Assembly: GCF_000196655.1 (NCBI RefSeq)
Contig: NC_014253.1
Location: 992,001-1,056,000 of the forward strand
Direction of reading: 5' to 3'
Source of the DNA: Methanohalobium evestigatum Z-7303
Lineage (GTDB): Archaea > Halobacteriota > Methanosarcinia > Methanosarcinales > Methanosarcinaceae
DNA length: 64,000 nucleotides
Made by a program: the position numbers and the translations under genes. Under the pieces are notes generated by a model. The model saw only the letters and a list, made by a program, of their open reading frames with translations. It searched no databases and had not been told where the DNA came from. Positions 49,493 to 58,390 of the stretch are shown one piece after another (the stretch's first letter is position 1; each line of letters begins with the position of its first letter).

Positions 49493-50886
49493 ATGTATCA
49501 GACTTTACTGGTACGGATTATACCTACATCACAACAGGAAGAATTATTGTGGATACTGTCTGAGAAATGCAGGTTGCTGTACAATTTTGCTCTTGCTGAA
49601 CGCAAAGATGCTTATAGTAATGGTACAAAAATCAGCTACATTAAACAGCAGAACGATTTACCAAATACCAAGAAACAGTATCCTGAATATAAGTGGGTGT
49701 ATTCCAAGGTATTGCAGTCTGTACTGAAACGACTTGATGCTAACTACAAATCGTTCTTCTCATTGAAGAAAAACGGTGATGAAAACGCAAGACCACCCAA
49801 ATATCGCGGAGTGGATTATTTCTTCACCATGACCTACAATCAGTCTGGATTTGAAATTACTGATTCTAAAAGTAATAAGATAGCCTATAACAGTACCGAT
49901 ACTACTAATTATCTATACGGTGCAGATAAGCCTGAATATACTGAAGATGATGAAGTTTTTATCAGTTTTTCACACAATCATCCATCTGGATTGGAGTTGA
50001 AATTCGGTTTGCCTGCTAAAATCCTTTATGACAGGATACTGAGAGTAGCTGATGAGATTGCACAGGTCGGGATATATCAGAAGAAAGATGGAGGATATTA
50101 TCTCAGTATCACATATAATGTACCCTGTCTGGATTTCAAACACAATGACAAATACCTGGCTATGGATATTGGTGTCAGTAAACATACCATGGTTGATTCT
50201 GACGGTAACCTTAGAGAGATGATTAATAAGAGACCGGATAAATACTGGGAGCCTAAAATCCAGCAGATACAATCCAGATTGGATCACTGCAAGAGATACA
50301 GTAAGAAATGGTACAGGTTGAAGCGCAACCTGAACAGGATGAAACAGAAATCTTCCAACCAGTTGAAGGATTTCCAGCACAAGAAAACGAGGAACATCAT
50401 TGACAATACAGATGCAAATGTTATAATCATCGGTGATTTGTCAGCCAAACAGATGGCATCGAGCAAGAAAGGAGATAAGAAATCCGATAAAAGCACACAC
50501 CGCGGTACCCATAATTCAGCTCACATCTCAAGATTCGCTCAATTTCTAACACTCTAAATCAAAGATTTAGAGTTATCTTTAAATCTGCGATTTAAAGAAC
50601 CTATAAGGATGTAAAGATAGGTAAAAGAATTATAGAAATTGATGAATCATATACCTCTCAGGACTGCTGTAATTGTGGTTACCGACAGAAGATGCCTCTG
50701 TATGAAAGGAACTACAACTGTCCCTATTGTAGGCAATCAATGGATAGGGATAAAAACAGTGCTATAGTGATAATGGAGAGATATTTACGCCAGAATGCCC
50801 TGTGGACGGGCTATCAGCGGTTCGCTGATAATCTGCGACAGACAGGCCTGTTGATCGGGATGATTACTCAATCATTACCGGGATGA
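49493..50886 (+). pseudogene. tnpB: TnpB of IS605-type element 5, broken by a 50-bp insertion
   Basis: The first part (49493-50557) holds the N-terminal domain, LAMDIGVSKHTMV (RuvC Asp) and IIIGDLSAKQM (in place of the usual IGxEN Glu region). It ends early at TAA 50555-50557, inside an inserted palindrome. The zinc ribbon CCNCG...CPYC and MDRDKNSAIVIM lie after the insertion in another frame. Removing 50551-50600 restores one frame, reading ...QFLTYKDVKIGKRIIEID..., with no other lesion. The interruption separates RuvC I/II from the zinc ribbon and RuvC III. Confidence 0.85.
50551..50600. mobile_element. 50-bp twin-hairpin insertion inside tnpB element 5
   Basis: Two perfect 10-bp hairpins sit back to back: ACTCTAAATC/GATTTAGAGT (50551-50560 and 50564-50573) and TCTTTAAATC/GATTTAAAGA (50576-50585 and 50589-50598). 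The insertion is flanked by AAC (50548-50550 and 50598-50600), a candidate 3-bp duplication, though too short to be sure. Both stems share TAAATC/GATTTA. It looks like a tiny palindromic (REP-like) mobile element. Confidence 0.7.
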
Positions 50887-51580: not shown

Positions 51581-52111
51581 ATGAAATCCAGCACCATTAT
51601 TTTGATAATTATCCTTGCAATTGTTGTTGCGGGTTCAATTCCTTTATTGATATATCAACTATACCCTCCAAACATCGATGAAAACTCATATGGTCCTACA
51701 GGACCGGGAAGGTCTTATCAGGACCAAAATTTAAAAACCAGTTTTGAATCAAATGGTGAAACGATTTACTATACCGGATTTAATAAATCGGGCGATAAAA
51801 TCCAGATAAGTTCTGGACCTCATTGGGTCTATGTTCATGGTGGAAGTTGTGTTGATTGTCATGGTGCAGATGGAAAGGGAAATAGACCGATAAGGATGAA
51901 TTATAAAATACCTCCTGATATAACCTATAGTGCACTAACTTCTGATGAGCATGACGAGCATCCAGTATATACAGATGAAACTATAAAAAGAGCGATTAGA
52001 AAAGGAATAGACCCTTCTGGAAACCTGCTTGACTCTACTATGCCAAGATGGCACATGTCTGATAAAGATGTAGATGATGTAGTAGAATATTTAAAAAAGC
52101 TTGATAATTAA
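51581..52111 (+). CDS. Membrane-anchored monoheme cytochrome c
   Basis: The 176-residue protein has an N-terminal uncleaved membrane helix (residues 5-27, IILIIILAIVVAGSIPLLIY). It then has a class I cytochrome c domain with CVDCH at about residues 89-93 and a distal Met candidate in STMPRWHMSDKDVDDVVEYL. The domain should lie outside the membrane. It is divergent from the exporter and convergent with a sensor kinase. Monoheme c-type cytochromes are unusual in methanogens, where MmcA is multiheme; the electron partner is unknown. Confidence 0.87.
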   Translation: MKSSTIILIIILAIVVAGSIPLLIYQLYPPNIDENSYGPTGPGRSYQDQNLKTSFESNGETIYYTGFNKSGDKIQISSGPHWVYVHGGSCVDCHGADGKGNRPIRMNYKIPPDITYSALTSDEHDEHPVYTDETIKRAIRKGIDPSGNLLDSTMPRWHMSDKDVDDVVEYLKKLDN

Positions 52112-52120
52112 CATTTATAA

Positions 52121-54496
52121 TCAGTTGATGTAATTAGTTCTGTCATTGTCAATTTCCATAATACAGGTATCAGTAAGTGGTAACATTACATTTACTATAG
52201 TTCCAACATCTTCCTCACTTTCAACCCATATACTGCCGTTATGAAGCTCAATAATTTCTTTACATATATACATCCCGATACCTGTACCGCCATGATTTCT
52301 TGTCATTGACCCGTCAATCTGGTAAAAAAGTCCGAAAATATTTGGTATCAACTCTTTTTTGATACCTATTCCATTATCCTCTATTGTAATGTGAGCGTTG
52401 TCATCTTCTCTAAATCCGTATATTGTTATTGTTCCTTCACAGGGTGTAAATTTATTTGCGTTATCAACTAAATGAGTAAACACCTGTTTTAAATAGTCCC
52501 AATCTCCATAGATTAACAGTTCATCTTCTACGGATGTTTTAACATATTGGTTTTTTTTCTGTATTTTGGGATTGAGATTTGATACGATATTGTCTATCAG
52601 TCTTTTTATTTTAAATGAATGAAATTGATAACTGGATTTTTCAGTATGTAGGACGTTTAAATAAAGAAGTGATTCAATAAGATGTGTTAACTGGTCACAG
52701 CTTTGGACAATAACATTCATACCCTTTTTTTGTTTTTCATTAAGTTCTCCCAGTGTTTCGTTGTTTATCAAATCGCTATAGCCCTTGATATGGGTTAGTG
52801 GAGTTCTTAATTCATGGCTCAAATTCGCTATGAACTCATCTTTCATTTTATCCAGAGATTTGAGTTCTTCAGTATATTTTTCAAGGGCTTTTTTGGCGTT
52901 TTTAAGTTCGGTAACATCCAGAAGTGAGCCTATTACTCTGGACTCTCCGGGAACTATACTGACAACCATATTAATGTGATGCTGGTTACCATATCGGTCT
53001 AAAAAACGGTATTCATATTTGTTCGGTGCAGAATATGGGTCATGGAGTAATTTTTTGTAATTTTGGTGCAACCGTTCTATGTCTTCTTCTGCTACAAATT
53101 CCATCCAGTTCTTTTTTCCTTCTATCTCTTCTTTGGAGTATCCTGAAAGTCTTTCAAATTCTCTGTTTACAAGGGAAAATATATTGTTGCCATCTGCAAT
53201 TACAGTGGCTGTGCCAGTTGTCTCAAAAATAGTTCGATATTTTTCCTCATTCTCTTTTAATTGTTCTTCCGTAGCCTTGCGTTTGTTGATATTACGTGTT
53301 GAAAAGATGATTTTTGATTCATTTTTAATATCATCCTGAACAAGTATTCCGATAGTTTCCACCCATATGTAATAACCCTTTGCATGTCTACATCGGAATT
53401 CAGCAGTTGATGAGTCTACATTTTTTAAATCTTCATTGAACTTCTTTTTTATTTTCTCTACATCATCAGGATGAACAAAGTTAAAAACTGTTTCACCGAC
53501 AATTTCTTCAGGTTTGTATCCAAGTATATGTTCATGGGATGGGGTGGCATATTCGATAATTCCGTTTTTATCGGTTTTTGTAACCATGTCCTGCATGTTT
53601 TCTGTTATTTGGCGGAACGATTTTTCAATTTCTCTGTATTTGGTACGGTCATCACCTGAACTCAAAACTCCGATAATGTGTCCGTTATCATCTTTTAACA
53701 CTGTATTGTTCCAGGATATAATTCGTTCTTCACCATTTTTTGTTAATATTGGAATTTCAAGATATTCGGATTCCAGTTGCCCAGAATGTAGTTTTTTGAC
53801 AGTGTTATTAAAGGAATTATGGTATTTCTCAGGAATAAATTCGTATATGTTCCTCATCAAAATGTCATCTTTATCGTGTCCGAGTATCTCACAACCCTTT
53901 TTGTTAACAAATGTGATATTCAGGTAGGCATCGATCACCAGAATAACTACACCAGCCACATCAAGATATTTTTTGTTTAGTAATTTTTCTTTTTCAAGTT
54001 CGCTATAATATTCATGAAGTTTGGATTCCATTAATTTATAGTCGGTAATGTCCTGGGTGGCACCATACATTAGATATGGCTCTTTGTTCTCGTCCAGAAC
54101 GAATTTTCCAATGGATTTAACATATCGTAGTTGTCTGTCGTTGTTTCTCAGGATTCGATACTCTATATGATAATTATTATAGGCGTTTTCCAGTGCATCA
54201 TTTAGTGATTTTTTAATTTCTGGTAAATCATCAGGAAGTGCAACTGATAAAATGTCTTCTATTGACTCTGGATCTTCAATGAATCCTAAAATACGTTTTA
54301 ATTGATAAGATGGATTTATGTTATCGTTCTTGATGTCCCATACCCAACTCCCGATATTTGTCAGCTTTTAAGCTTCATTATGGATAGATTCTTTTCTGAT
54401 GCTTTGTTCATCCAGTTTTTTAATTTCATTGACTTCATTACGCAGTGCATTAATTTCTTGTATAAGTTCTTTTTTAGTTTTATTTTCATCCCGCAT
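52121..54496 (-). pseudogene. Multi-PAS sensor histidine kinase with an ochre codon near the N-terminus
   Basis: Starting at ATG 54494-54496, the frame encodes a coiled segment and stops at TAA 54368-54370 (codon 43, within HNEA*KLTNIGSWVWDI). The frame then continues without further stops through at least four PAS domains, the dimerisation helix (DEFIANLSHELRTPLTHIKGY, phospho-His) and the ATPase N/G boxes (LVDNANKFTP, HITIEDNGIGI, GTGIGMYIC). The first PAS after the stop has no start codon until Met 54070. It is a soluble-type kinase that senses an unknown signal. It may be a recent pseudogene or survive from the internal Met. Confidence 0.78.
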
Positions 54497-54661: not shown

Positions 54662-55669
54662 TTATTTTAAACCTTTACTTGCAAGGTGGTATGATAATAT
54701 CTGTTCAAGCCCTTCCAGATATTGACTGATATCTATTGAACTGATATTTGAAGTTATATTGTTTATTTGGTTGTAATTTTCCTGCCATATTTCAAGGAAA
54801 TGTTTTTCTATATCGTGTTTTTTTAACAATTCCACCATTTCTTCTTTATTTTTCTCATCCAAGTCTTCTACATTCAGTATTTTGTTTGATATAGCATAGG
54901 CGAATATGCCAGAACTGAAATCACCTTCTTTAATTTCTCTTTCCCATGTGCTCAACCAATTACCAATTCTTGCCATTTTCTGGGCTCTCCAGATAACTTC
55001 CCTGAGATAGGGCAGGTCTTTAATATCAAAGCTGGGCGATGCCATCAAATCAATATCAGAATAGAGGTAAAAAGTCATGTTGTGGTTGGCATAGATTTCT
55101 GCTTCCTTTAAATTAATCAAATAGGGATTAACATTAATAACATATGAGTGGTGGAGGGAATTAAGCAGTTGTTTAATATCGAAAGTAAAAACATCTTTAA
55201 ATTCTTCATACCTTGGTAAACTCGTAAGTTCTAAGTTTATATTGTCCCATATTTCCTCTGCAAGTTTTATTCGTCTTATTTTGTTAATGTCATTTATGTT
55301 TCTGGTATCGATACATTCTTTTTCGAAAGGTATATCCAGACATTTCTCAAGCAGTTCTTTATCTTTGTACTTGTCTGCTATATCATCCAGAGTAGCTACA
55401 AAAATCGTAAGAATTGTTTTTAGACTTCCTATATGTTGTGTGTATTCCTCGGGTACAGTTGAAAACATGAACCCTGGATTTCGGGAAGTAGTCAGGGTCT
55501 GTACCCAGTTCCAGAGAAACCTGTCTCTGTCTCCACAAATATCTTCATATTTTTCTATATAATATAACATTTCATCCGGGATGTTCATCTCTTTTATCTG
55601 TTCCATGTTTTTGTAGAAATCTGGTGATTCTGCAAGCTCTGTTATAGTGTCTATAGGTCTATAGTTCAT
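54662..55669 (-). CDS. Class I terpene-synthase-like protein
   Basis: ATG 55669 has AAAGTGAT upstream; GTG 55678 is possible. The all-helical protein of about 335 residues shows an aspartate-rich motif LDDIADKYKD (DDxxD-like) at about residue 95 and NWLSTWERE at about 235. The latter fits NxxxTxxxE, the NSE/DTE metal triad of class I terpenoid cyclases, with the following basic and acidic residues. Overall similarity is weak by eye. It is divergent from a DUF92 protein related to polyprenyl-phosphate kinases, supporting an isoprenoid role. Product unknown. Confidence 0.62.
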   Translation of the reverse strand: MNYRPIDTITELAESPDFYKNMEQIKEMNIPDEMLYYIEKYEDICGDRDRFLWNWVQTLTTSRNPGFMFSTVPEEYTQHIGSLKTILTIFVATLDDIADKYKDKELLEKCLDIPFEKECIDTRNINDINKIRRIKLAEEIWDNINLELTSLPRYEEFKDVFTFDIKQLLNSLHHSYVINVNPYLINLKEAEIYANHNMTFYLYSDIDLMASPSFDIKDLPYLREVIWRAQKMARIGNWLSTWEREIKEGDFSSGIFAYAISNKILNVEDLDEKNKEEMVELLKKHDIEKHFLEIWQENYNQINNITSNISSIDISQYLEGLEQILSYHLASKGLK

Positions 55670-55823
55670 ATTTATCACTTTGGGCGAATATGTATTATAA
55701 GTTCATTTTATTTGTGTTTTTATAAATACATTAATATTAATGAACTTTGTAAATCAACAATGGTTATTTAAATAATTAAAAAGCAATTTTTATCCAATAT
55801 TAAACACAAAACGAAGACAAAAC

Positions 55824-57218
55824 ATGGCGGATGTATCACGTTATATCAAAGACCTTGATTATGAACACTGCAAACAGCTGATTCATATTGTATTTGGGTT
55901 TGTACTACTGTTGTTTCCTTTTGTGAGTATTTACAGTTTATTGGCGGGTTCTGTCTTTGTTCTAATCCTTTTGAGATACATTCCAGAAGAATCGGTTCTT
56001 TACTGTATTGTTCATGATAACCCCTCATATTATCCTAATCAACCCAAAAAGCCGAAAATAAGAAGTTCATATAATCTTGTAGTATCAATAACTATTCTTC
56101 TGTTAATAGGAGCTATTCTTGATTTTACTTCTTTTTCATATCCGCTGTATGTAATTTCAGGTGCATTTGCAATTTCCACTTTCGGTGTAAGTACTGCAAA
56201 TTATGTAAATCGTAAAATAGCATATAAAAAATATACATTAACATTGACATCTATCATTGTTCTGCTCGGTGTGGGCATAATCACGTCGTTTCTGTCAAGT
56301 TCATGGATTATATTCTGGCAAAATACACCCATCACCTACGGCATGGTTTTTTTTGTTTCAGTGATAGGAGCTATAACAGGGGCTTTATTTGAATCTATAC
56401 CTTCAAATATTGATACTAATTTCATTGTTCCGCTTGGATGTGGGATGGTAATGTGGATGTTTGCTGCTTTTGGCTACTTTGTACCACCGCTTCAGATGTC
56501 TTTTGCATTCGCATTTTCTCTACTTTTGGGGATTTTGGCCTATAAAGCAGGAATAGCAGACATTTCAGCACTACTCAGTGCAGCGCTTCTTGGAGTTTTG
56601 ATAATTGGTTTTGGTGATTTCTTCTGGTTTATATTGCTGTTAATGTTTTTCATACTTGGAGGAATCTTTACCAAATACAAGTACAAATACAAGGAATCCA
56701 TTGGTATTGCACAATCTGAGGGAGGTATTCGCAGTTATGAAAATGTGTTCAGCAATAGTACAGCTGCATTATGTCTTGCTATTGCCTATGGGATTTATCC
56801 TGAATACAGTTCTCTAATAATCTTTGCATATCTGGGGGCTGTAGCAACAGCCACCGGTGACACATTGGCAAGTGAAATAGGCACTACAGCAAAAGCAAAA
56901 CCAAGGATTATTACCACATTAAAACCCACAAATCCTGGAACAGATGGTGCGATATCCGTTCTTGGAGAGATAGCAGCAGTCTTAGGTTCTATATGTATAG
57001 GGTTGTTGGCCTATCTTTTTGGGATGGTTGATAACCTTTTACTTTCGTTGGTGATAGGTACTGCGGGAGGATTTATAGGGACAAATATAGATAGCCTGAT
57101 AGGGGCAACAATACAGGAAAAACATTTCCTTTCAAACAGTGGCGTTAATTTTGTTGCAACCTTTGCAGGTGCTTTAATCTCAGGAATTCTTTATATATTA
57201 ATGTATAAATTATTTTAA
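55824..57218 (+). CDS. DUF92 membrane protein (phytol/polyprenyl-phosphate kinase-like)
   Basis: The 464-residue protein has more than ten membrane helices. Its C-terminal half is DUF92: IAQSEGGIRSYENVFSNSTA, TATGDTLASEIGTTAKAKPR, LKPTNPGTDGAISVLGE and FIGTNIDSLIGATIQE. Plant VTE6 of this family phosphorylates phytyl phosphate with CTP. The N-terminal half is a further membrane region resembling the dolichol-kinase class. It probably acts on an isoprenoid alcohol or its phosphate. It shares a promoter region with the terpene-synthase-like gene. Confidence 0.78.
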   Translation: MADVSRYIKDLDYEHCKQLIHIVFGFVLLLFPFVSIYSLLAGSVFVLILLRYIPEESVLYCIVHDNPSYYPNQPKKPKIRSSYNLVVSITILLLIGAILDFTSFSYPLYVISGAFAISTFGVSTANYVNRKIAYKKYTLTLTSIIVLLGVGIITSFLSSSWIIFWQNTPITYGMVFFVSVIGAITGALFESIPSNIDTNFIVPLGCGMVMWMFAAFGYFVPPLQMSFAFAFSLLLGILAYKAGIADISALLSAALLGVLIIGFGDFFWFILLLMFFILGGIFTKYKYKYKESIGIAQSEGGIRSYENVFSNSTAALCLAIAYGIYPEYSSLIIFAYLGAVATATGDTLASEIGTTAKAKPRIITTLKPTNPGTDGAISVLGEIAAVLGSICIGLLAYLFGMVDNLLLSLVIGTAGGFIGTNIDSLIGATIQEKHFLSNSGVNFVATFAGALISGILYILMYKLF

Positions 57219-58390
57219 TTATTTACTTTCAGTTGCAATTTTTATCTGCATTGGTATTGTAAAAGTAAACCTGCTGCCTTCCCCGTATTTACTTTCAACT
57301 TCTATATACCCACCATGAATTTCGACAAGCCTTTTGACCAGTGTTAATCCAAGACCTGTACCCGCGTGCCGTCTTTTAGTACTTGAATCCAGTTGTTTAA
57401 ATGATTCAAATATTTCGTCCTGTTTATCCTCTGGTATACCTATACCTGTATCAATAACCGAAAATTGATAATTATTATCCACAAAATCCACTTCTGTGGT
57501 AATTGATCCATTATTTGTAAACTTTATAGCGTTGTATATGAGGTTGTAAAGTATTTGTCTAAGCTTTATATTATCCATACAGACATACTCTATATCAGGG
57601 TTAATTTTTGAATCAAGGGTTAATCCTTTTTCAGAAGCAAGTGGAGACAATTTTGCCATTAAATCTTCAATGATTTCGGTTAATGATATTTTTTCATAAT
57701 GAAGTTCCATTTTACCGGATTCGATTTTTGATAAATCGAGTAAATCGTTGATAAGGTCAAGCAGGTTCTGTCCGCTTTTGTGTATTTTATTCAGGTAATT
57801 TATCTGGTTGTTGTTTAATTTCCCTGCTTTTCCTTTAAGCATGATGTCTGAAAAACCTATAATTGAGGTTAGAGGTGTGCGCAACTCATGACTCACATTG
57901 GCAAGAAGTTCACTTTTTGCTTGACTGGTAGCTTCAGCTTCCAGTTTTGCAATGATTAGGTTCTCTTCAGCCTGTTTTCGTGTAGTAATGTCACGGCAGA
58001 ACCCAAGTATAACCGGTTCACTATCCAAATCAATTCGGGTTATTTTTACCTCTACAGGATAAATAGAACCGTATTTTCTTTCATGAGAAGTTTCTATACG
58101 ATAGGAATTATGTATCGATAACTTATTCCTGTACCTTTTTCTGGAATTATAATTTTCGTTATAAGGCTCAATATCCATAATGTTCATTGAAAGAAGTTCA
58201 CTTTTTGTATAACCCAGATTTTCATATGCAAGTTCATTTACATAAACAATGTCACCATCAAAATCATGGGCTATAATAGCATCAGCTGCAAGCTCTATAA
58301 CTGTTCTGAACCTTTCTTCACTTTCTTTAATTCGTTTTCAACTTTTTTACGTTCATCGTTATTTCCTCAGTGGTTTTAGATAATCTGGTT
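57219..58390 (-). pseudogene. 5'-truncated PAS-histidine kinase with frameshifts
   Basis: The intact part (from Met 58187) carries a PAS/PAC segment (PVEVKITRIDL, ILGFCRDITTRK) and a histidine kinase: LLANVSHELRTPLTSIIGF, LYNLIYNAIKFTN, SVIDTGIGIPEDK and GTGLGLTLVKRL. Upstream the frame reads back through ESEERFRTVIELAADAIIAHD to a stop. The preceding coiled segment (TEEIT...DERKKVENELK) is in other frames, implying at least one frameshift near 58330 and another near 58365. No start remains before 58187. It is probably a decayed gene. Confidence 0.7.

Follow-up and report, generated by a model that had tools for sequence, protein, structure and literature searches.

A terpene synthase-like gene of Methanohalobium evestigatum and its archaeal family

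In canonical bacterial class I terpene synthases, the arginine that senses the substrate diphosphate lies in helix G, 46 residues before the asparagine of the NSE motif. Sat1646 and Stt4548, two class I pimarane-type diterpene synthases of actinomycetes (PDB 7e4n, 7e4m), carry this arginine in helix H; in Sat1646 it is Arg220, three residues before Asn223, and the linker Asn182 and effector Tyr183 sit at the break between helices G1 and G2 (PMC9814573). An article that mined actinomycetes by structure named the non-canonical classes ID-IF, its main text being silent on archaea (PMC11234867), and "terpene clusters" have been counted in haloarchaeal genomes in an article that appears to name no such enzyme (PMC8600319).

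Here we describe a gene of the methanogen Methanohalobium evestigatum, found in a 64,000-nucleotide stretch of DNA that we call the window (Table 1). Its predicted product shares with Sat1646 and Stt4548 the class I fold, an NSE motif with an arginine before the last acidic residue and a candidate helix-H sensor arginine; a linker asparagine at the G1/G2 break is shared with Sat1646. Identity to these two enzymes is about 10-13% in structural alignments, and the archaeal family has NWxxTW where they have NDxxSY. With the canonical bacterial enzymes of PF19086 (such as the hydropyrene, epi-isozizaene and epi-cubenol synthases), the window protein has in common the fold, the DDxxD/E and N-x3-S/T-x3-E motifs, helix positions, motif spacing and length. 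In contrast to those enzymes, the archaeal family has no conserved helix-G arginine and falls mostly below the Pfam cut-off. We think it probable that the gene encodes an active archaeal class I terpene synthase with a helix-H diphosphate sensor, and that synthesis of its product is subject to local signals. This reading builds on the predicted fold, the motifs, the spread of the family and a recurrent gene linkage, all of which were computed, and from these we infer catalysis, substrate, product and the direction of regulation. It is weakened by the sequence distance from any known synthase, by the lack of a conserved helix-G arginine and, in the Methanosarcina branch, of the candidate helix-H arginine R234 as well, and by a nonsense codon in the kinase gene beside the window synthase.

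Table 1. Features of the synthase locus, with positions in the window
Feature	Position	Strand	Basis or remark
Class I terpene synthase-like gene	54662..55669	-	335 aa; translation, AlphaFold, Foldseek, family profile
DDIAD, D95-D99, first metal-binding motif	55373..55387	-	Translation, model, alignment
NWLSTWERE, N237-E245, NSE-type second metal-binding motif	54935..54961	-	Translation, model, alignment
R234 codon, candidate helix-H diphosphate sensor (N minus 3)	54968..54970	-	Alignment; PMC9814573
N197-M198 codons, candidate linker/effector, helix G1/G2 break	55076..55081	-	Model, alignment
PAS histidine kinase gene, interrupted	52121..54496	-	Downstream of synthase, same strand, 165-nt gap
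Premature TAA codon in the kinase frame	54368..54370	-	tblastn and DNA alignment with locus L015
DUF92/TIGR00297 membrane protein gene, with N-terminal extension	55824..57218	+	Pfam/NCBIfam; judged outside the system
Second PAS histidine kinase gene, beyond the DUF92 gene	57219..58187	-	Pfam scan; relevance uncertain

Metal-binding motifs and predicted fold

The synthase frame starts with an ATG at 55669, a GTG at 55678 being a possible alternative. DDIAD (D95, D96, D99) and NWLSTWERE (N237, T241, E245) are 142 residues apart; the earlier note's claim that the motifs have class I terpene synthase order and spacing is thus borne out. A loose form of the motif pair, with a spacing of 125-160 residues, occurred in 4 of 1,136 open frames of at least 200 codons drawn from the window and 38 control stretches; the window synthase is one of these four, and the only one with a second motif of the TWERE type. 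Across the 114 rows of the family alignment, D96, N237, T241, W242, R244, E245 and D250 are near- or fully invariant, and since the motifs are conserved to this degree we conclude that they are not chance occurrences. Outside the Methanosarcina branch (102 rows), D96 is found in 101 rows, D95 in 97, and N237, R244 and E245 in 100 each; the near-invariant positions there are R48, W55, D95, D96, N237, W238, T241, W242, R244, E245, E248, D250 and D313. When the family profile was compared with the PDB, NWLSTWERE aligned with NDLASYERD of Sat1646. Scans of the locus for a sigma-70-type promoter, terminators and Rfam families gave nothing above chance.

Single-sequence searches of Pfam, NCBIfam and the PDB with the window protein gave sub-threshold matches or none, PF19086 (Terpene_syn_C_2) scoring 14.9 bits against a cut-off of 23.7; the family profile and the comparison of folds were informative where these searches were not. 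PF19086 matches 26 of 32 family members at E values up to 0.1; some members from haloarchaea and from methanogens score above its cut-off. Sat1646, Stt4548 and one other terpene synthase were the only PDB sequence matches of the family profile, the best with an E value of 0.095.

We modelled the window protein with AlphaFold2 from an alignment of 32 family sequences. The model (pLDDT 92.5, pTM 0.91) is all-helical and has the class I terpenoid alpha-helical fold. DDIAD is placed near the end of the first core helix (residues 74-101), and the NSE motif, about 140 residues downstream, within helix 216-248. In a Foldseek comparison with the PDB, which aligned the model over its whole chain, class I terpene synthases made up 48 of the 50 matches listed (best E 5.6e-5, probability 1.00). 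Hydropyrene synthase, tolypothrichol synthase, BcBOT2, Sat1646 and epi-cubenol synthase are among them, as are the plant aristolochene, isoprene and taxadiene synthases, all within the range of 5.6e-5 to 1.3e-3. TM-scores against the matches are only about 0.4-0.6, which for the predicted structure points to a shared fold that has genuinely diverged. A second model, built for the branch that diverges most (Methanosarcina-type), again matched class I terpene synthases, Sat1646 ranking first with TM-scores of 0.62/0.69. The structural check proposed for the gene hence came out in favour of a class I fold, in which the two motifs may face one cavity, and on the models the reading as a terpene synthase is well supported. 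In a library of viral structures we saw weak matches only, the best being a viral terpenoid synthase, and PADLOC gave the synthase no meaningful match.

The two remaining PDB matches among the 50 listed were a trans-prenyltransferase and DabA, an N-prenyltransferase of the same fold. They raise the possibility that the protein ionises a prenyl diphosphate and, like DabA, passes the prenyl group on to a different acceptor, an activity with which the absence of consistently linked tailoring genes at the synthase loci would also agree. However, DabA ranked 35th with a TM-score of 0.36, nearly all better matches being terpene synthases; no acceptor-making neighbour is conserved; and the second motif is of the NSE type, not a second DDxxD. 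We consider a prenyltransferase of this kind unlikely. The assignment as a trans-prenyl (isoprenyl) diphosphate synthase was rejected on the same motif, and the Pfam scan returned no PF00348.

Likely diphosphate-sensing layout and probable substrate

At the helix-G sensor position, residue 191, the window protein has a glutamate; the position is variable, and the alignment shows no conserved arginine at 188-195 outside the Methanosarcina branch. This does not exclude the family from the class I synthases, because the accepted members Sat1646 and Stt4548 also lack a helix-G arginine. R234, three residues before N237, is present in 100 of the 102 rows outside the Methanosarcina branch and N197 in 92 of 102. 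In the AlphaFold2 model, helices 187-198 and 200-209 are separated by a break at 199, and N197-M198 sit at this break. Judged by sequence position, R234 and N197 match the layout of Sat1646, suggesting that the archaeal family likely has an effector triad of the Sat1646/Stt4548 type. The Methanosarcina branch may work differently, since R234 and N197 are lost there and an arginine or lysine is found at 194.

Sat1646 and Stt4548 act on copalyl diphosphate, whereas the genome of the window has no match to a class II (squalene-hopene-type) cyclase (SQHop_cyclase_C) to supply that compound; it does encode two polyprenyl synthases. On these grounds we favour FPP or GGPP, both linear, over copalyl diphosphate as substrate of the reaction that we propose. 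In the proposed reaction, DDxxD/E on one helix and N-x3-T-x3-E on another would bind Mg2+ together with the diphosphate group of a linear prenyl substrate, farnesyl or geranylgeranyl diphosphate made by the genome's own prenyl synthases being the most likely. R234 in helix H, with the linker N197, would trigger loss of the diphosphate as in Sat1646 and Stt4548, and the resulting carbocation would cyclise or be quenched to give a terpene hydrocarbon or alcohol.

Distribution of the family and the DUF92 neighbour

A first profile, built from Methanohalobium and Methanosarcina-type proteins, picked up members across the phylum. With a second profile, 87 of the 292 haloarchaeal genomes sampled, representing 35 of 77 genera, proved to carry the family, and the synthase is present in 14 of 112 Methanosarcinaceae genomes. 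The description of such enzymes as rare in archaea, made in the earlier note, is therefore not supported. The sister Methanohalobium genome encodes a protein 95% identical to the window synthase. Members also lie on named plasmid records of Halorussus, Halobaculum, Halobellus, Natrinema and Salinigranum, all annotated as "hypothetical protein". A search of plasmid records with a haloarchaeal query, at E values up to 10, returned haloarchaea only and no bacterial plasmid; with the window protein as query, the one bacterial match was poor and partial (E 0.6). In genomes of another family, f8, members of the synthase family that are partial or split were seen at L087, L097, L100 and L101, some of them in two frames. 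By composition, the long N-terminal extensions of the haloarchaeal frames L076, L085, L156 and L181 resemble reading-frame noise in GC-rich DNA.

DUF92 is a family that includes the plant phytyl-phosphate kinase VTE6. The gene divergent from the window synthase does encode a DUF92 protein, as had been proposed: PF01940 and TIGR00297 match above their cut-offs (216 and 223 bits), the 216-bit match covering residues 231-450. The protein differs from other DUF92/TIGR00297 proteins such as VTE6 by an added N-terminal extension of about 230 residues; this extension, which has no Pfam match, is a feature of the DUF92 core protein of Methanosarcinaceae.

The divergent arrangement, seen in both Methanohalobium genomes, and the kinship with VTE6 could suggest that synthase and DUF92 kinase jointly make or recycle one isoprenoid, as the earlier note supposed. 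The distribution of the two genes argues strongly against this. DUF92 is found in 105 of 112 Methanosarcinaceae genomes, in all 14 genera and nearly always as a single copy, compared with 14 of 112 genomes for the synthase, and most of the genomes that carry it lack the synthase. The two genes are adjacent only in Methanohalobium; they are far apart in Methanosarcina-type genomes, the synthase-bearing genomes with such a separation including G006, G074, G076 and G077, and DUF92 did not recur as a neighbour at the other synthase loci that we examined. DUF92 is thus a core gene that occurs independently of the synthase, and we rejected it as a partner: a joint pathway is very improbable, and the pairing is particular to Methanohalobium.

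Signalling genes beside the synthase

The recurrent partner of the synthase is a PAS sensor kinase or PAS-type regulator, not DUF92. A PAS histidine kinase, receiver or Bat-type gene lies within 650 bp of the synthase at 35 of 114 loci, in 15 of 40 genera. Most of the other loci, those of families f22, f12 and f25 and the larger part of f17, have no such gene at this distance, a point against the proposed regulation. Such neighbours were found for 18 of 593 control genes (12 of 326 haloarchaeal and 6 of 267 methanogen), a rate of 3% that may be somewhat low because the seeds of the control profiles were themselves neighbours of the synthase. The expectation would be about 3 genera rather than 15. 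Fisher's exact test gave p = 9e-18 with loci, themselves not independent of one another, as the units, and 1e-7 for haloarchaea alone. On the family tree, a quick tree with long branches, kinase linkage changes 9 times, at least 5 of these changes being forced by well-supported branches; the counts may be slightly too high, as two fragments with a kinase or PAS gene beside them, L067 and L206, were counted as "other". Judged from this tree, the linkage to a kinase or regulator appears to have arisen several times independently.

The arrangement differs between lineages. All 12 Methanosarcina-type loci have a PAS gene directly upstream on the same strand, with recognised kinase domains at every locus except the fragmentary L206. 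At the haloarchaeal loci L092, L094 and L184, the kinase gene is downstream of the synthase. Other haloarchaea have a divergent PAS-GAF-BAT-HTH_10 regulator, with the domain order of Bat, the bacterio-opsin activator, or a FilR1-type helix-turn-helix regulator, found at L076 and with relatives at 10 other loci, which makes 11 loci in addition to the 35 above. Compared with Bat systems, the regulators here adjoin terpene synthase genes, which they may control, and the window locus has a histidine kinase instead. At L250:7025-8838 (Halorussus halophilus, NZ_CP044524.1 419024-420837), the start of a helix-turn-helix gene overlaps the synthase stop. In a single haloarchaeal genome (L090:7242-8777, plus strand), a frame with Pfam receiver and HalX domains continues in frame with the synthase, an apparent fusion.

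A cytochrome P450 gene, possibly for a tailoring enzyme, lies two or three genes from the synthase at L199:7167-8435, L187, L197 and L091. P450, FAD-oxidoreductase, GGR-like and metallo-beta-lactamase genes were considered as general partners and rejected, each being confined to some lineages.

In the window, the kinase frame is broken by the TAA codon and restarts at 54070; the sister genome encodes an intact orthologue of 794 residues (L015, 5911-8295). Adjoining the kinase gene, at 51581-52111, is a gene whose product has a cytochrome c domain and a hydrophobic stretch at its N-terminus, here in a methanogen, and an IS605 OrfB-type transposase gene lies at 49493-50557, a few kilobases from the locus.

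We also considered that the protein might be a non-catalytic sensor that binds FPP or GGPP and reports the size of the pool to the adjacent kinase or receiver, to which both the repeated linkage to PAS kinases and regulators and the receiver-HalX fusion would lend themselves. Yet a diverse family retains every metal ligand and the putative triad; some copies have P450, FAD-oxidoreductase or hydrolase genes nearby, as suits an enzyme; and many loci have no signalling neighbour. A purely sensory role is, we believe, improbable. For an active synthase, which we favour, the company of PAS histidine kinases, receivers and Bat-type regulators in several lineages would mean that local signals switch terpene synthesis.

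A class I terpene synthase is a known kind of enzyme; as far as we could find, neither the archaeal subfamily nor its triad of Sat1646 type nor its linkage to sensors appears to have been described. Our literature search, in which subscription journals were largely uncovered, returned no paper on an archaeal class I terpene synthase and no description of any of these three features. Tentatively, and with more doubt than we attach to the enzyme itself, we suggest that archaea may own a large class I terpene synthase subfamily whose expression or activity cytosolic PAS sensors drive, with one physical fusion to a receiver domain, and whose terpenes could be environmentally triggered signals or protectants in haloarchaea and methanogens. 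With the family present in about a third of the haloarchaeal genomes sampled, and in methanogens, it can be tested directly whether archaea produce cyclic terpenes. That sensor kinases and Bat-type regulators recur beside the gene offers a lead to what the products are for, and archaea may make regulated terpenes that have so far not been looked for.
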